NCBI RefSeq assembly: GCF_018873765.1
Contig: NC_057920.1
Span: 14,397,307-14,461,306 of the forward strand
Reading direction: 5' to 3'
Origin: Telopea speciosissima
Taxonomy: Eukaryota; Streptophyta; Magnoliopsida; Proteales; Proteaceae
DNA length: 64,000 nucleotides
Within the stretch, counting starts at the first letter, position 1. Each line of letters starts with the position of its first letter. The translations under genes were made by a program, and so were the position numbers. Shown one piece after another: positions 10,954 through 64,000 of the stretch. The notes under the pieces were generated by a model. It worked only from the letters and a program-made list of their open reading frames with translations, had not been told where the DNA came from and made no database searches.

Positions 10954-10954
10954 A

Positions 10955-11440
10955 TTCTGGATCAAGGAATTGAAGCCTGCATTACTTTAAATTCACTTGT
11001 GGTTGGCTTCAATGATTTGGACACTGCAGAGAAGATGGTTCAAGCAGTGAGAGAAGGTCGGATGGATCTCTGCAGAGTCCTAAGGGCCTTAGACGATGAT
11101 CAATCGATCCAGACTGATGCTGTTGAGGTGTTTGTGAAATTGCTCCATCCTTGTCTGCACCCACCCAACAAATACACTTACCCATTTGCAATCAAGGCAG
11201 CGCCAGAGCTCTCGGCTTTGTGCGAGGGAAGAGTGCTTTATGGCACCGTCATTATATCCTCTTGGGGTTCTGATATTTTCATCCTGAATTCTCTCATTCA
11301 TTTCTATGCTGCGTGCGGGGAATTGGATAAAGCTTTTAAGGTGTTCATGAAAACTCCCAATAGGGATGTGGTTTCTTGGAAATCTAGGATTACTGCTTAT
11401 GTACAGGCAAGAAAGAAACAGCGGTGCTCTCCGGTTGCGT
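10955..11440 (+). pseudogene. Captured PPR gene fragment (PLS-class, OTP81-like)
   Basis: The frame reads PPNKYTYPFAIKAAPELSAL, then DIFILNSLIHFYAACGELDKA, then NRDVVSWKSRITAYVQ. This matches consecutive PPR motifs of plant organelle RNA-editing factors; the VVSW(N)S(M)I block is diagnostic of the PLS class. No start, E or DYW domain is present, and the frame stops at 11440-11442 soon after the similarity ends. It is a truncated copy carried by the LTR element, not a working gene. Confidence 0.75.
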
Positions 11441-11523
11441 AGACGAGTCCTCTGGCATTTTCTTGGGTCCTAGAGTCTTCGATCTTCTTCTCAAGTCTTC
11501 TAGGTCAGCACCTACCTATCGAC

Positions 11524-11745
11524 ATGGGCCACCATGGCCTTACAACTTCTGATTTTGCTGGGGAAAGATTGTTTACTCGACTATTCGAGAGTGAAAGGAT
11601 TGTTTATTCGGCAAGTCCGTACCCATCTCAAGGAAGTAACGATAGAGGAAAAATGGTTTTCTTCGAGGAGGGGAAATCGGAGCGTTTTGAGTTGGAGGAT
11701 TTGCTTGGAGCTTCTGTAGAAATGCTGGGGAAAGATGGGCCAGGG
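11524..11745 (+). pseudogene. Captured LRR receptor-like kinase fragment (juxtamembrane to glycine loop)
   Basis: The translation gives SERIVYSASPYPSQ, RGKMVFFEEG and RFELEDLLGASVEMLGKDG. In LRR-III receptor kinases this stretch precedes the kinase core (RFELEDLLRASAEMLGKG). Similarity ends at the glycine loop. The frame then runs on for about 200 codons into unrelated Pro- and Arg-rich sequence to 12348. The kinase catalytic lobes are absent, so this is a captured fragment next to the PPR piece. Confidence 0.75.
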
Positions 11746-12696
11746 AGAGATGAGGACTGGAACCCTCGACCCCCACCGGAACCACCACCGTCTTCTCCTG
11801 CAACACCTTTTCAATGCGAATTCTGCTTTGAACCCAGCGAGAAAGATGGGGGCCACCATGGAGCTCTTTTCCTGTCCTTGTTTATTCGAAGAACTCTTCC
11901 AACGGAGAGCCTTGCCAATGATTTTGAAGAGGAAATGAATAAGCCATATGAGGTGGATAACCAAACTCCAGCCGAAGAGATGGGTGTACAGCTGAAGACA
12001 CCGCAAACACAGGCGTTGGCTAGAGAAAGGAGAGAGTGGGATCCTGGCGACCGAGACCTCAAGAACCGGCAACGTCGACCAACACCGGAGCCGCCACCTC
12101 ATTCGAGCTTCTACAGGAGCAGGAATACTGGTTCCTTTGCTGCGAGAATTTTGTTTTGTAGCTCAACAAGTCCACAGCAACTTGGATTCGGGAAACCAAA
12201 CCGCTGCAACTTGGAGCAACGAAGCCTTGGAATTCCTTCAAATTGGCACAGCTGTACAGCCAAAAAAAAACACAGCAACCGGAGAAAAGTAAGTGAGAAA
12301 TGTAAGAGAGAGGAAAGTAATAGGGAATATAAAAAAAAATTTAAATAAAACAAAAAAATAAAAAAAAAGAAAGAAGAAGGAACGTGTGGCCGTATTGCCC
12401 TTGCCACGTGTTTGTTATTGCTGGTGTTTTAAACCAGCCTTGCATCAGTTTTATAAGCCGATGGCAGAGGACTGAGTTGGGTCTGGACTCATGCATGCTC
12501 ATAGATTGGTTGAAGATGGCGCGATTTTTTTGGTGTCGATCCAGCTTTGTTTGGGCGGCTCTTCTTGGCTATGGGTTGTTTGGTCTTAGGGAAGCATGTT
12601 TGTGGTGCACCAGTTCTATGCAGCTGAACCTTGAGGACAAGGTTCTTGTGAAGCGGATGGCAATGATAAGATCATAGGCTTTAGGATATTCCCTTA

Positions 12697-50537: not shown

Positions 50538-51074
50538 CTCTCATCTGATGTCATGCTAGGTGAGGGATGAGGACCAGTTCTCTATTCTGACTTCTGACTT
50601 CTGATACTTTTACCCACTACTTATAAGTTGCCGACCACTTTTTGATATTTTATCATTAAAAAGAAAATAATTAAATACGCCTAACCTCTTAAAATGGACC
50701 TAATATTTCTCATGCACCGTTAAGGTTCTAACAATTTCACATGCATCTCATGAAAATCTCACGTACACCCCATATTTTTTAATCTTAAGGCAGTTAAGTC
50801 CATTCCATTAATTTCATACGTTAAATGCTAACATGAAACAGGTAATGTACAATTATATCCTTTTTAAGGTTTAATTACCAAAAAGCCCTTAAATTAAAAA
50901 ATATAAAACGACAGAAATTAAAAATTCAAATACCCAAATCACCCTTTCTCCCTTTCCCTTTTGCGATCGAACACTTCCTCAACCCTTGTTGGAGCTCAGA
51001 AAATTGATTGAAGTCTTCTTCCTCTTCTACTTCTCCTGCTTCTCTGAATGGTGGAAGCAGAGGAAACTGATTGA

Positions 51075-51252
51075 AGTTTTCTCCCATCAGTCTCTTGCCA
51101 TTAGTTCTCCCTCTTTCATCTTTGAGGGTCGAAAAGATCCACAGAGAGTCATAGAGCATCCTCGTCCTCTTCATCAAATTTCTAAATTGTATGAATTGGA
51201 AGGGGACAGCTGTTGGCTTCCAAGGAGGTAAGATGCTTGATCTTGCAGACAT
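51075..51252 (-). pseudogene. Captured SUVH2/9-like fragment, second piece
   Basis: The minus-strand frame reads IQFRNLMKRTRMLYDSLWIF followed by STLKDERGRTNGKR. In SUVH2 and SUVH9 the segment just before the SRA domain reads QFREHVRKTRMIYDSLRMF followed by a Lys/Arg-rich stretch. The match covers about 35 residues; the flanking residues do not match. It continues, in gene order, the piece at 51876-52235. Confidence 0.7.
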
Positions 51253-51875
51253 GGTTGGAACTGTTTTACGATGATTTTGGTTGGATGAGGAGAGCTTCTA
51301 AGGGCCTCGACCGTCAACTGATCGAAGATGGCCTCAGCAATACCATCCTCACCTTGCCTTTGCTCTAGCAATAGGAGATTTTGCTGGCTTGGTTTAATCA
51401 ATTCATCAACTTCGGTGAGAAATTTTTTTTTTTTTTTTGGAAAAAAACTCCGGTGAGAATTGCCCCAACATCCAGAGAGGGTTCGAGGTGTGGTGGAGGA
51501 GGGCTTTCTGGAAACGAAATGGTGGCTCTGAACGGCCTCCACAAATTCGAATCGCCGCTGCCTCTTCCGACCATTGAAAAAAGATTCAAAGCACGAATAT
51601 GACCCCAACAGTTTTTACCTTTCTTCTACCACTCTTCACCTTCCATCCTTTTTTTGTTTTGAATACTTCCTAAACTGCGTCCGAAGGTTTTTCCCATATT
51701 TTCTTATTAGGCATAGGCACACATCCATAACTCGTAGCAAATTCGAATTTGGGAATAATTTTGAAGGAAAAATGAAGAAAATGAATGTAATTCAATCATC
51801 AATACAATTTTTTTTTTCTTCTTGGGGTGAGGGTGAATTTGGTTATGAAAAAACTTGGTAACGGAACGAAGTAAT

Positions 51876-52235
51876 TCAGGTATTGCACAATTTCGTAGAG
51901 ACACTTTCTTCCTCAGGTTGAGGAACAATTGCAAGTGAATTCAGATCCACAACCGTCAAATCGGAATACTGTTGCATCCTCTTGGCGAAAACAGACTGGA
52001 AAAGCTCAGATGTCTGGTAGTATTGTGAGTAGACATCATTTTCGTCATTGCCAATAATGTCTGAAACCGAAGAGATTTCTTCAACAACGTCGGAACTAGG
52101 GTCAGAGTTCGGGGCTAAGAAGTATGGTTCTTCGTCAAGGGGTTCGAGCTTGGGCTCGATTTGGGGGGTAATACGTTCAGGGAGAAGATTTAGGTCTATA
52201 TACGGACTAAAGATCCCATCTTGAGGTAGAAATCT
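51876..52235 (-). pseudogene. Captured SUVH2/9-like fragment, N-terminal piece
   Basis: An open minus-strand frame of about 119 codons contains DLNLLPERITPQIEPKLEPL, NDENDVYSQYYQTSELFQSV and FAKRMQQYSDLTVVDLNSLA, then IVPQPEEE. This aligns with the N-terminal region of SUVH2/SUVH9 (IPKLEP..., ...YNTVAESARSAFAQRLQRH, VAVLDSLTGAIVPVEE). These SRA-SET proteins bind methylated DNA and help recruit RNA polymerase V in RNA-directed DNA methylation. The frame lacks a good start ATG and stops at 51876-51878. SRA and SET domains are absent. About 620 bp of unrelated sequence separates it from the second piece. Confidence 0.7.
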
Positions 52236-52736
52236 TTATAGGAAAAAAAAAAGAAAGTGATCTAGTATACAAAGGTTTCTTCCAATGAGCCCTTTCAGTG
52301 TTGGGAGTGGCAGAGCTTGGTCATGGCGAATTTGTTTTGTCCCCCTTCGCTTAGAATTAAGGAAGAAAGGGAGAAAGGGAGAAAGGGAAAGAAAGAAAGG
52401 GAAAGGGGGAAAGGACGATTTGGGTATTTTGATTTTTCAATTGTTATCGTTTTATGTTTTTTAATTTAAGGGCATTTTGGTAATTAAATCCTAAAAAGAA
52501 TATAATTGTACATTATCTATTTCATGTTAGTATTTAACGTCTGAAATTAACGGAGTGAACTTAACTAGCTTTAGCTTGAAAAATAAGAGATATATATGAA
52601 ATTTTTAAGGGGTGCGTATGAAATTATCAAAATCTTATGGGTGGAAGAATATTAGATCCATTTTAAGAGATATGCGTTTTATTTATTTATTTATTTTTTG
52701 ATGAAAGGGGTTATGCGTATTTAACCTAAAAGAAAA

Positions 52737-54220
52737 ATATGAAATCCTTAAAAAATATTAAAAAAAAGGAAATTTTAGATTTTATTTAGAGTAAGAGGAG
52801 TGTAGAGGTAGAAGTAGGTAGTCAAAGGGGTAATGGCAGTGGGACGGGACGGTCAAAGCGTGAATATGTGGGGATATGATGGGACAAAGCGATGGTGCTT
52901 TTGCTGTTCCCGATAAAGCCAAAAAGAAAGAGTTGGAATGGAAAAAAGGACCCAAAAGCAAAACCAAATAAATAATAAAGATTAAAGAGTTAAAGACCTC
53001 ATAAAAATCATATAACTATCAATCACAGAAAGGTTTAAGTTTAATTAATACATGATAGTGGAAGATGAAGTTTTTTTTTTTTGTTTTTGGGTGGGGGGAG
53101 AGGGTGAAAGGTAGATGATGCTGACATGTGCTGAACTTAAGACCTAAAACAGTCTTTTTCAATCTCACGGAACGGTCAGGATGAGCTGAATCAATCACTT
53201 CGAAATGGGATTTTGAATCATGTGAATGAATGATGTGGTAAGCTCCAATTGGTCAGTGAGAAACCCTACCCCCTCCCAAAAGAAAAAGGGGAAAGTTTTC
53301 TTCCACTGGTCCTTGGTTTCATTTTTTCTTACCTTGTTATGATTTTATGTAAAAGGTCGGGTATGAGGGTAGTTGCTTAGCATGTGTCACCCTTTATCTT
53401 CTGTTTAGAAAAGACCACCCTCTTGCCTTTCTATGTCTAGCCTTATAATTTTTGTATGTCATTAGCTTATCTAAAGCTCGTGATGTGGCCAACCTTGTCA
53501 TATATTCTTATTTATTTTTTTTAAATCTAAGGGTGTAGGTTAGTTGGCCAGGGCGCATGTCTAAATCTACACGTGTCATGAGTTTGACTCCTCTTACTTT
53601 CTTGGGGCTAGTTTCATGGCTTCTATAGTTTTCATAGGATCCAATGCTAACTCAATGCGCACGTGTAGAGGCATATACGAATGCTTGGAGAACTAGTCAG
53701 GTTGAAGATCAAGAGACCCTCATTAGTGGTGCATTACTTGTATATGTCTATGAACACCTACATTACACCAATCACTAATGTGTAATATTCCAAAGTTTCA
53801 ACTTTCCAACACTTTATTTTAGCAATTGGCTAATTCCCATTGAGCTTAAGTTTGACATGTGACTAGGGAGCCTAGGAATCTATTTGTCCATGTATACAAT
53901 AATGATGTATATTGATATTGTATGTAAGCACATTATTGACCATTGGATGAAGTGACAAACATCTTAGTCAATCGATCTAGTATCATTGAATCATCCATGA
54001 TCCACTGTCTGAATTATACACAACGCAATTCATGTCTCCCCCTCTCTGCATCTCTCTCCCCACCACCGTCAACCACAATCGCCTCCTAAGTCCTAATGTG
54101 CATTGTTGGCCTGCAGCCACCCCATCGTGAGCCCTTGTCACGGTTACTAGAGATGGGGTTAGAAGTAAAGAAACCATTAGTCGTTTGATGTATTAGTACT
54201 CATGATGGAGTTCGGTTCCT
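52737..54220. other. Intergenic region
   Basis: No gene is recognised. It is AT-rich with short T runs. Minus-strand frames at 52782-52967 and 53983-54177 are short and without motifs. Confidence 0.5.
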
Positions 54221-54366
54221 CTGCACATACCAACAGGTGAACGTACATGTGAGAGCCAATCACATTTTAATTTTGTTTTCATATAAACCCCTCCTTCCAT
54301 TGTAAATGACAAAAATAGGACAGGTGGTTGGCTCTCACATGTACGTTCACTTGTTGGTACGTGCAG
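54221..54366. repeat. 146-bp foldback element or MITE
   Basis: The first 39 bases (from CTGCACATACCAACAGGTGA) and the last 39 are inverse copies with two mismatches, separated by 68 bases. The transcript of either strand would fold into a long hairpin. No clear target duplication is seen outside. Confidence 0.85.
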
Positions 54367-54633
54367 ATGATCCATTCTCCTCATGCCGTGGGTGTGGGTG
54401 TGGGTGGGGTAGGTCGAAGATTGGGGCGAGCGACGTTCATTTGATGCATGCTTCTCACAGTTCCTCTGTGTAGAGCCAAAGATTGAATCTCTCTAATGGA
54501 TTCTCTTTTACTAATTTCCCTTTAAAATAGCTCATTCAGTTTTCAAATTTCAAAATCATCTGTATTCTTCAATCCATTTTTTTAAAAGAAAAATGAGTAT
54601 GGTTGCAGGCTCCGCGAAAATGGTTGTAGTGAG

Positions 54634-56662: not shown

Positions 56663-59304
<2,642 letters not shown>

Positions 59305-59394
59305 GGTTTTGGTGAAGAAAAACAAGAGATGGAACTGAGAGGGGTAAGAGATATGAGAAGAAATGGGAGAGAGAAAGAAGGTAGGATTTGGGGG

Positions 59395-59404
59395 ATTATA
59401 AATT
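59395..59404 (-). promoter_or_regulatory. TATA-like element of the FNR gene
   Basis: AATTTATAAT on the minus strand, about 95 bases upstream of the start codon, with CCACCCAA just above it. A GGT triplet run (59432-59452) lies further upstream. Confidence 0.45.
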
Positions 59405-62400
59405 GGGTGGAGGAGATTTTAAAGCCAACCCAGTGGTGGTGGTGGTGGTGGTTATGGTAGGAGTCTTGGAGAGATTCAGATTCTTTGAGGATAAGTCTAT
59501 GTATGAATGAACCTAATAGTCCTTTGACCCTCATTGCTCTGTTTGTGCGCATCCATGAGATTTGTTTTTTTGGGTGAAAATCCACGAGATTCGCATTCAC
59601 AGAAGAGGTTTGTAAATGAGATTGGCGGGCACTATTACTAACTGTTCTTAACTCAATATGGACCGTTAAATTAGTTAACCACATCAGGAATTTGGGATAT
59701 GCAATAAGAACTGGGGCCCAGTCCATGAAAGAAAAAACATTGAGTCAATTGAGCTTGGTACCGTTGCAAGAAGCTTCTTCAACGTATCGAGCTCTCAGGC
59801 CCGGACTGCAAAATACTGCAAGATTAAGGTACTGCAGAGGATTTTTTTTCTTGTTCTGCCATGTGGCAACTTAGATGAGACAAAACTTTTGTTGATAAGT
59901 AGACTCAACAATCTTTGGATTAGGTTCCTCCCCTTGGAAGGGCATCATCCAATGAGGCATCCAATGGCTGGACTGTACTGTATACATCTCGATGGCTGAT
60001 TGGGCACATGCCGAGATGTGTGCAGCACAGCCCAGCCATCGATTGCTTCATTGGGCAATGCCCTCCAAAGAGAGGAGCTGAATCCACAGTCTCCAGCTCA
60101 TCTCATCGAAAATGCACTGATAAGCCTAGGCCATTCTTTAGCAACCCATTTTATAAGCCTTGGGCTTGGGCCTGTTGAGTATAATTTTTTTAAGAGTTTA
60201 CCATACAATTCTTCATTTTTTTGGGGGGAAAAAGATTGACACGTCGTTAGTGTGCAATTTTCTTTCACATGATTTTTTTTCACTTGTTCTGAAAATGTGG
60301 GTCCCATATGGATGATTCCTTTTTTTTAGGACACCTATTGGTGTGACATGCAGATTCCTCCTCACATTAGAGCCTGTGGAACCCTCTCCCCTTTTTTTCT
60401 TGGAAAATTTTTAGCCCCGCCACTAAGTGAGGTATTTCTTGACCACACATCTCATTTATACCATGTTGAAGGTGATGTGGTAATTCCAATATTTGAATAT
60501 CTAGAAAATGATTTGGATTCTCCACATATCACATTTTAAACTCAAATTCAATCAAACACTCTTCCTTGTAAGTCTGTTGATCTTTGTATTTTGTAGTTGT
60601 ATATATATTGGCATGCACCAACTATCCTAAATTTTTATTTTGCCACTTGGCCAACTCGGATTCTATAGAAACTTAACATGTGTAGGAGAGTTTGAGGACC
60701 AATAATTGAGCCTTAGCTGATCTACCACATGGCAGATATGCAGGCCACCAAGACAAGTTTCTGTGATGAGCCCCAAAGAGAATCTACCCCCTCCTTTTCT
60801 TTTATTTTGATCTCAGACTCAATCCTCACTTCTCTAGGAAAGAAAGTTCTTCGCCTACTTTTTTGAGATCATTAATATTTTACTTAAGTTACTTGGGCCG
60901 GATCTTAGAATCTTACATTAACCATGGGCTTACAGAATCAAGAGAATGAATGACCTTCAAGAAATTTGTTAAGACTTGAAGGACAAGCTTATGGGCCTTG
61001 AATAAAGCTGAGTCCATAACTTGAATGGGTTGGCCTCCAAACCCCTAGACAGAAATTGGACCGTCAGCAACGGTGCGCTTGCCCGTTTGACATGGACGCT
61101 GGTTTACCCATGTCAAGATAATCAAGAGTACCCGATCACCTAGATACTGGCGGTGAAGAAAGTTCCGGCTAGATTAAAATAAAAAAAAATAGGGCAACTC
61201 TGCTTTGATACCATGTTGGAGAGTTTAATCTAAAAACCAAGACTAGGTGGAGATTGCTCCTCAAAGGCACCAAGGACTTGAAGATTTGCAAGTTGTGCAT
61301 TTCTGTGTATCTTATGTCCTTTCCATAAGATGTGAAACCAATGGCATTGGAATATAGATTCAGCTTGGATCACAACTCCTGCTTAGAGTAGAGAAAATGA
61401 TGATCTTATCACCAGAATTGAAAGAGTGAGGAAAGGTTGAAATTGGGGAGAAAAGTGTTGGCAATGAGGGGACGAGATCACGATGAGCAACACATAGGGA
61501 AAGCCAGAAATGGGCTATGGGCCGTGATGGATCAGGCCCAATGCATATCTATTTTCATCAAATACATAGGGAAAGCTAGAAATGGGCCATAAGCAAAATT
61601 CTTTGTGACTGTTTGGGGGAGGTGGGGGGGAATGCCTTCACAGGGGTCCCAGAAAAGGGAAGCCACATGGCAAAATTATTATCTCCAATTTTGTTCTTTG
61701 GATGGACAGGACAAACACAGCATTAGATTCTTGAATGCTTTGTTTTATCATTTGGCCAGCTTGAATTGGGCTGAGCTTGACATGCAGGTTAGACTTTGGG
61801 TCCTAGTTATCTAAAAAATTTTAGCCCATCCAACATGCCACGTGACAACTAGTTGACATGCCATGTAACAAACTGTGTAAAAGAATGAGTTTTTGATCAT
61901 CTAGAAAGTAAATATTAAAAACACCTCATATATGAAAATTTCTTAGCTCTAGAGTTTGTTTTAGGTATCCTACATTTTATATTCAATGACAATAAAGAAA
62001 TTTTATAGATTAAATATTTAATTTTCTTATTAACACCCCTTAAGGTTTCAAATAATTTGTAAATGATCCATTTTTAACTTCCAGAGATGAATCAACCACC
62101 AGTCACTCTCCAAGTTCACAACTTGGTTTCTGAGAACAAACCAGAGAGGTCATCCAAATGAATCTGCAACTAAGCTCGTTTGTTGAGCACTCCATGGTTG
62201 GAATGAGGTTCACAAGTGCGTTGGGGCTCAAAATGTTTTAAGCCCAAAACTCATCTTTGCCCTTCATGCTTTTCCAAACCAAATCAAATTATGATCAGAA
62301 CAAAATTCCATTCAGGTTCTCAGAAGTCAGAAAGCTACTTTCTTGGCACATTTCCCCTTCATGTGATGATGATCTCCACTCTTACAGAGGGGACCCTTCT

Positions 62401-62717
62401 GCAGACTCGTTCAACCATGACATGAGCATGGAAGTGAAAAAATCAATGCATTATACTATTAAACCACAGAGAGGGAAACCCCTTCCACCTCTACGTACTT
62501 CCTCACTGGTTCCCCTATAGACTAAGCCAAACGATCACCAGGTCTCAGCCACAGACACCTAACAGACGTTACAGAAACCTAAATGTATAACAAACTCTAG
62601 AAAACCAAAAGAGAGAAGAAGAGGGAACTTTGATGTTATGGGTTTCTTTTTGACGACCCAGAAACCTAAATGCATATACACTCCATGAGAAGTGACAAAA
62701 AACAATTACAATCTTAT
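59405..62717. other. Intergenic region
   Basis: No gene is recognised. Two features stand out. TTTGATACCA at 61207-61216, followed by TGTTGGAGAG, looks like a copia primer-binding site (minus strand TGGTATCAAA) next to an LTR start. ACATAGGGAAAGC-AGAAATGGGC occurs twice (61492-61515 and 61563-61586). Neither is enough to define an element. Confidence 0.4.
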
Positions 62718-62725
62718 ACTTTGTG

Positions 62726-63524
62726 TACGGGTGTCAAACGGTGTGGTTCTGGTTATTCGGTTCGGTTGCAGTGCGGTTTACATTTTGATAAAGGTGAAAT
62801 CAAAATCGAACTAGATAGGAATCAGCCAAAATTAGAATCGTTTTGCATACGATCTGGTTTTACCTGTTTCTATTTGGTTTTTGTTATCCGATTCACAACT
62901 GGTTTACATGCGGTTTGTGTAGTGTTGTTTGGGGAAACAGTAATGAAGACAACCTTGGTTTTCAAGGCCTTTATATTCCTGTGTTTCCCCATTCTTTTCC
63001 GGTGTCCCTCACTCATCATATTTCCTATGCTTATGTAATAAAAATAAAAAACTTTTCATCTTCACCCGTCTTTTTCTTTTTCTATTCTTTGTTTTTCAAT
63101 TTTTTTTTTCTTCTCCATTCTCATATGATGAACAAACTATTTCTTTTATTAAAAAATAGAATTTTATTAATCCATTTTAATATCGTCCATAATTTTCAAT
63201 TCATACTTAAATAAATATAATATATAGTTAACCCATGGAAGTTTAATTATTTTATGTTTCATGTTGATGTAATAACTATATTTATTAAATTAATTATATG
63301 TTATTAATTAATCCAATTGATGCATGGGATAGTATTAAAGTAAGAGGTATCCATTTCTATTTGGTTTTTCCGATTTTTTATTCGGTTTAGTACCGTGGCT
63401 TTGCGGAGAAAATCAAAACCGAACCAGAAAGAGAACCTATAAAATCAAAACCGGATCATTTTTCTGCGGTGGAGTTTAGTTCGATCGTAAACGATGAGTT
63501 TCGATTCCATTTTGACATCCGTTA
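62726..63524. mobile_element. hAT-like non-autonomous element, 799 bp
   Basis: The left end TACGGGTGTCAAA and right end TTTTGACATCCGTTA are inverted with small differences. ACTTTGTG lies directly outside both (62718-62725 and 63525-63532), an exact 8-bp target duplication. Subterminal GGTTCGGTTGC and AAAACCGAACC words are typical of this class. The interior is AT-rich and non-coding. It ends only 17 bp beyond the stop codon of the next gene, so it lies in that gene's 3' flank. Confidence 0.88.
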
Positions 63525-63541
63525 ACTTTGTGCACATTGAA

Positions 63542-64000
63542 TCAATGGAATCCCCTTGAACCTCTGGATTGGTAGAGTTCCAACCTACCTTTGGCTTCCG
63601 GCAATAATGTGTCAACAGTGGGATCTTGCATCATGTACCCCTGCTTCGAAGCCCATTCGAGCACTGTAAGGACCTCCGCTTGCGCAAGTGCCTCGCTATC
63701 GGGGACATGCAACGCAATGTAGCTTAACAGAACCAATGCCGGTATCTGCACAATCTGTTCGCTAAAATACACAAGCTGAATTAGATGCTTCGCCCCTCCT
63801 GCGTTGATTATGGCCTTACAGTGGTCAACATGTAGGTAATTCTCAGTGCAGGCAAACTTAGTGAGGGCAATGGCAGCCTCCCTAGAAACATCCCCTTCTC
63901 TATCATCAAGCAATAGCACCAGTGGTCCAATTATCCTCGTCTCTGTGGCTCGGAAAGTCCTTGCCAAGTTGCCCATGGCCGTGACGCTGGGTACGAGGAG
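63542..64000 (-). CDS. ARMADILLO REPEAT ONLY (ARO) protein, C-terminal part, runs off the window
   Basis: Plant-specific armadillo-repeat protein of the ARO family, linked to actin organisation and polarised growth (root hairs, pollen tubes, trichomes). The frame is open from the right edge to the TGA at 63542-63544. It reads LLVPSVTAMGNLARTFRATE, RIIGPLVLLLDDREGDVSRE, AAIALTKFACTENYLHVDHC and AGGAKHLIQLVYFSEQIVQI, then WASKQGYMMQDPTVDTLLPE and LELYQSRGSRGFH. These helical repeats and the SRGFH end are family features. No intron is seen in the 459 bases present. A hAT element directly downstream forms or lies next to the 3' untranslated region. Which of ARO1-4 cannot be decided from this part. 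Confidence 0.93.
   Translation of the reverse strand, partial: LLVPSVTAMGNLARTFRATETRIIGPLVLLLDDREGDVSREAAIALTKFACTENYLHVDHCKAIINAGGAKHLIQLVYFSEQIVQIPALVLLSYIALHVPDSEALAQAEVLTVLEWASKQGYMMQDPTVDTLLPEAKGRLELYQSRGSRGFH

Follow-up and report, generated by a model that had tools for sequence, protein, structure and literature searches.

The locus considered here raises the question of whether a transposable element has taken up part of a gene that itself acts in silencing, and of what has become of the captured part. In Arabidopsis, SUVH2 and SUVH9 help to bring RNA polymerase V (Pol V) to methylated DNA, according to an excerpt of a review (PMC7617993). An earlier note, made from the letters alone, had placed a Mutator-like element (MULE) with pieces of a SUVH2/SUVH9-like gene at 50659..52736 of the window (the whole stretch of 64,000 nucleotides analysed, located at C5:14397307-14461306 of the searched assembly of 823 Mb and 1287 contigs). 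These outer coordinates proved exact, target duplication included, with the element proper at 50668-52727. Its termini, TAATTAAATACGCC and AGGTTAAATACGCA, are both abutted by an exact 9-bp target duplication, AAAAGAAAA (50659-50667 and 52728-52736), a length within the 9-11 bp range given for MULEs in the available part of PMC3310237. The left (294 bp) and right (332 bp) terminal inverted repeats are identical at 241 of 291 aligned positions, and BLAST of the left end against the right end of the element returned 80.5% identity over 313 columns (E 4e-76). The features of the element are as follows.

50659..50667, no strand: target site duplication, left copy, AAAAGAAAA, an exact match to 52728-52736
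50668..50961, no strand: left terminal inverted repeat, 294 bp
50962..51079, no strand: left interior, no donor assigned
51080..51193, minus strand: SUVH2/9-type fragment 2, codons 134-172 of the C7 gene, 91% to L009:4185-4298
51194..51893, plus strand: BTB/POZ-type gene 3' end from C1:83006745-83007419, last coding part and 3' flank
51894..52363, minus strand: SUVH2/9-type fragment 1, 90% to L009:3644-4110
52217..52219, minus strand: copied start codon, the ATG beginning at 52219
52364..52395, no strand: short purine-rich stretch from the SUVH 5' end to the right repeat, with a similar junction in L014 (C3)
52396..52727, no strand: right terminal inverted repeat, 332 bp
52728..52736, no strand: target site duplication, right copy, AAAAGAAAA, an exact match to the left copy

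In the four open frames searched with Pfam (109-146 aa, the 112-aa frame not among them) no transposase was recognised, and none of the MULE-domain matches listed (best 150 of 827, genome-wide) was linked to the terminal repeats of the element. The window element is very probably a non-autonomous Mutator-like element of the chimeric Pack-MULE kind, with captured pieces of host genes. Two donor genes account for most of its interior; for the stretch 50962-51079, which contains a 35-bp direct repeat (77% alike), a separate donor was not found among the matches listed in the own-genome search (best 40 of 356 candidates).

The first donor was found on C7 by searching the genome with the element itself, at a DNA identity of 90-91%. 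Its frame (L009:3784-5700; C7:16672284-16674200) runs unbroken over 638 codons and encodes SAD_SRA, Pre-SET and SET domains; among solved structures its best match is SUVH9 (E 1e-236), with SUVH6 far behind (2.3e-97). This locus is a SUVH2/9-type gene, closest to SUVH9. Fragment 1 comprises codons 1-109 of the C7 gene and the 140 bp that precede its start codon (5' UTR, judging by position); fragment 2 follows at codon 134, and the 74 bp of SUVH sequence between codons 109 and 134 are missing from the element. The capture stops at codon 172 and the SRA match covers residues 193-346, so that the methylated-DNA-binding part was not captured and the window copy lacks the SRA domain. The protein-level searches gave little, and the identity of the pieces was settled by the donor DNA: a Pfam search of four captured frames gave nothing above the cut-off, and in the PDB the second piece matched SUVH9 alone and weakly (4nj5, E 0.09), whereas the first met no SUVH among solved structures and only a weak, unrelated kinase. 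The search of both pieces against SUVH proteins that had been proposed earlier thus gave a weak match for the second piece and none for the first. The intact C7 donor upholds the proposed capture of a SUVH2/SUVH9-like gene on the minus strand, in two separate pieces from its N-terminal and pre-SRA parts. The coordinates given for the pieces needed correction, 51876-52235 being in fact 51894-52363 and 51075-51252 being 51080-51193. Neither of the outcomes named beforehand as contrary to the reading, a best match to another protein family or a parental locus devoid of DNA similarity, was encountered.

The second donor had been overlooked. The ~700 bp between the SUVH pieces (51194-51893) are not SUVH sequence and match C1:83006745-83007419 at 84% over 719 columns (BLAST span 51187-51895), where minus-strand open reading frames of the donor carry BTB (PF00651) and BTB-POZ_ANK-like (PF25553) domains. 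In the window the BTB fragment reads on the plus strand, opposite to the SUVH pieces, and the element combines two unlinked genes, with the fragment of one lodged within that of the other. A separate family of ~1.5 kb (L011:3005-4521, L012, L006, L007, L026-L028), of which L011 has 92-bp inverted arms, carries ~357 bp of the same 3' end of the BTB gene. An origin of the window fragment from this family is disfavoured, as the window copy has coding sequence that is absent from the family copies and has two small indel states in common with the C1 gene; as a counterpoint, one 9-bp state is common to the window copy and the L011 family and not to the C1 gene. The window copy, the L011 family and the C1 gene all diverge at almost the same place, to within 1-2 bases (L010 ~3745); in the flank of the C1 gene at this point, no other repeat was seen among the matches listed (best 40 of 759), except a short one at L010 2842-2992.

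Coding divergence from the donors amounts to 30 of 440 aligned sites for the SUVH part and 27 of 353 for the BTB part, with 31 of 312 in the BTB 3' flank. Because the two coding values are close, the SUVH and BTB captures are likely to be of similar age. A scheme of an old SUVH capture followed by a young BTB insert was considered and set aside, the order not being derivable from divergences as similar as these (30/440 and 27/353).

The Mutator-like assignment is further upheld by relatives with similar ends. With the left repeat as query, at least 40 places in the genome were matched (best 40 of 289 candidates, both ends of the window element included), and a second repeat in opposite orientation was present within the fetched flank at 13 of 28 other loci. 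Exact 9-bp duplications adjoin the termini at three of the 12 paired loci examined (L043, L058 and L066), some right ends among the 12 lying too near the edge of the fetched stretch for the duplication to be judged; L045 and L050 have near-copy duplications with one mismatch. Five of six loci fetched at 5 kb had no partner repeat with the window repeats as query; one of these five, L065, shows a pair with the C2 element (see below) as query. Most relatives end about GGGTTAAATACRCRTACCCC, which in L043 and L066 stands directly beside their duplications. A frame in L043, which we presume to be fasciclin-like, was given no family by Pfam. One relative, L014 (C3:54935580-54935996), has a junction between right repeat and SUVH 5' end like that of the window element, followed by a different interior, and it has changes in common with the window copy that are absent from the donor (alignment read by eye). 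Because of this junction and these common changes, the SUVH 5' capture has most likely left more than one descendant.

These features bear on whether transposon capture need be invoked at all. An ordinary duplicated pseudogene fragment could by chance have come to lie between inverted repeats, and a SUVH2/9 relic does exist on C4 (L068; 74-77%) that showed no terminal repeats over the 1.6 kb examined. At the window locus, however, long matching repeats enclose sequence from two unlinked donors, relatives of the same structure occur elsewhere, and this account is contradicted by the exact 9-bp duplication that adjoins the termini, which leaves such a coincidence with a next to negligible probability.

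Capture by a MULE, the preferred reading, is not confined to the C7 gene. The whole C7 gene as query matched C2:9658247-9658572, within an element at C2:9656924-9658900 that is bounded by GGGTTAAATACACAT ends and flanked by an exact duplication of 9 bp, TTATTTTAA; over 161 bp, the left end of this element is 73% identical to the left repeat of the window element. This C2 element contains two pieces of the SUVH2/9 gene on C3 (L020), one of 337 bp (95.0% identity) and one of 36 bp (91.7%), with ~480 bp of other sequence between them; the longer piece corresponds to codons 54-165 with a one-base deletion. Since the C2 copy is 78% identical to the C7 gene and the first piece in the window 69% to the C3 gene, the window and C2 captures are, as judged from these identities, separate events. 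With the C3 gene as genome query no further captured copy was found, the only matches besides genes being the C2 element, the window element and the C4 relic; the relic was left out of the capture count, no terminal repeats having been seen in the part read.

Two further SUVH genes (L016/L017) were taken to be SUVH1/3-like. N-terminal fragments of the SUVH1/3-like gene on C9 occur at ten dispersed places (87-95%) and look like an amplified family; one copy read, L070 (C10:30719074-30720914), lies in an element whose inverted repeats are different and end GGGTAATTTACACATACC. The 5' end of the C10 SUVH1/3-like gene occurs at four places (86-92%). Dispersed fragments were thus seen for all four SUVH-family genes tested. 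A non-SUVH control, window positions 57000-59450, matched its paralogue and, over 45-51 bases of the query, two short places, with no other dispersed fragment; another control query (61000-64000) was swamped by a high-copy repeat (best 40 of 1026), which was located at 62725-63508 (~784 bp) and is 84-90% alike elsewhere, its own place being included among those 40. A preferential capture of SUVH genes is a lead, four genes against one control being too few for a claim, and the 5' bias of the SUVH fragments may merely mirror where Pack-MULEs copy from. In the same genome, SRA-domain matches cluster at C1:65.39-65.52 Mb and C6:55.65 Mb, where genes with this domain have expanded locally; of the three matches on C1, two contain a stop codon.

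What has become of the captured coding sequence can be read from its decay. Close to its fifth codon, the copied SUVH frame has lost one base, so that reading from the native start gives MGSLVRI and then a stop. When the C3 paralogue was used as outgroup, the element lineage received 22 changes and the gene lineage five, three being unplaced. Seven of the 22 are synonymous and 15 non-synonymous, the neutral expectation being 7.0 synonymous (95% interval 3-11), and the SUVH copy is, on this pattern of substitutions, apparently decaying neutrally. A new chimeric gene, driven by a promoter in the terminal repeat and yielding a peptide from a 119-aa (51876-52235) or 146-aa (51174-51614) open frame, both on the minus strand, is exceedingly unlikely against this background: the native start leads after seven codons to a stop, the substitutions in the SUVH pieces are compatible with neutrality, and antisense BTB sequence with a poly-T tract splits the two SUVH pieces.

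The preferred view of a non-coding, decaying copy is joined by a bias in the kind of change. In the SUVH copy relative to its C7 donor, unpolarised C>T/G>A differences are found at 10 of 50 CG, 4 of 35 CHG and 4 of 120 CHH sites (CG and CHG against CHH, Fisher p 0.0018). The corresponding comparisons gave 8/84 versus 0/81 for the C2 element (p 0.007) and 13/96 versus 12/202 for the BTB fragment (p 0.04). A control of the C3 gene against the C7 gene, limited to codons 1-109, gave no excess (7/73 versus 7/79, p 1.0), and the reverse control, the C7 gene against the C3 gene, showed the opposite bias (5/82 versus 14/78, p 0.03), which implies that the influence of context within coding sequence is complex. 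The excess of C-to-T change at CG and CHG sites suggests, indirectly, past methylation of the element.

A further question is whether silencing of the element reaches the donor. One possibility, put forward as speculation in the earlier note, is that the element actively yields small RNAs which find matches in the parental SUVH2/9-type gene and reduce its output, a feedback on a silencing factor. Within the captured span, 76 of 632 24-mers and 99 of 635 21-mers of the parent are identical in the element, and the other SUVH2/9 gene, on C3, has been captured too, with 99 of 313 24-mers of the C2 element identical to it. Crosstalk of captured fragments with their donor genes through small RNAs has been reported for maize (Muyle 2021, as summarised in an excerpt of PMC13317346) and for Brassica napus (part of PMC11986588). 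Against an active role of this kind, perfect 24-mers are kept at only about an eighth of positions and the open frame of the parent gene is intact, and we consider it very unlikely. A wider form, in which N-terminal pieces of silencing genes would have been captured time and again by MULEs with related ends, and small RNAs from these copies would tune the silencing machinery as a transposon-made thermostat, appears very improbable as well.

The element is, in our view, most likely a silenced, inert relic at present, and its history may be pictured as follows. A MULE would have acquired ~655 bp of 5'-terminal sequence of the C7 SUVH2/9-type gene together with ~700 bp of 3'-terminal sequence of the C1 BTB/POZ-type gene, both copied at the DNA level, presumably through repair-type use of templates or template switching, followed by silencing. 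The BTB piece would have come to sit inside the SUVH piece in opposite orientation, where the 74 bp of SUVH sequence are missing. Transposition to the present, apparently intergenic site would have produced the 9-bp duplication, after which the SUVH copy would have lost its frame and drifted neutrally, its CG and CHG sites decaying as if methylated. The neighbouring gene is assumed to be FNR-like; Pfam gave no family for the one exon tested. Elsewhere in the window, an inverted repeat with 57-bp arms (86% complementary, 60 bp between them) is found at 54207-54380, and 10954-12345 holds a PPR fragment, with Pfam scores just below the cut-off, followed directly by another frame that presumably resembles a receptor kinase and had no Pfam match; this stretch is possibly a mosaic of gene pieces.

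What makes the case interesting is that SUVH2/9 genes have been captured repeatedly. With a donor that is itself of SUVH2/9 type, the system offers a natural test of epigenetic conflict: two unlinked elements carry pieces of different SUVH2/9 genes, with known donors and countable 24-mers, and a spillover of transposon silencing would be traceable by mapped small RNAs. Should silencing not spill over, a clear chimeric Pack-MULE with both donors identified would still remain. No report of a captured SUVH gene was found in a full-text literature search (titles and opening abstracts, with most subscription journals outside its range), and none is given in the available part of PMC8616336. MULEs and Pack-MULEs with several donors are already known from the accessible portions of PMC4858842 and PMC8903248, the former putting MULE-derived putative genes with at least two parents at 5-10% in most Oryza species. 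The window element is a striking instance of an already known sort of event, and nothing so far indicates that it has a function.

Its likeness to known systems is of three kinds. As in the Pack-MULEs of rice, maize, tomato and Arabidopsis, a non-autonomous element with inverted repeats and a duplication of the 9-bp class carries host fragments, sometimes from several donors (excerpts of PMC3310237, PMC4858842 and PMC8903248); unlike them, the window element has a donor of SUVH2/9 type and one donor fragment inside the other, and the ends of most of its relatives are about GGGTTAAATACRCRTACCCC. Vandal elements carrying KIU, with an Ulp1 domain, are similarly DNA transposons with a host-type domain in a context of transposon silencing; that domain is strongly conserved in eudicots according to the part of PMC13317346 available, whereas the window copy is a broken N-terminal fragment that carries neither SRA nor SET. 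Finally, as in the gene-capturing transposons in epigenetic conflict in maize and B. napus, the captured fragment keeps stretches of perfect identity with its donor; it differs from these in being known from sequence alone, and in that the donor is of a type that itself acts in silencing.
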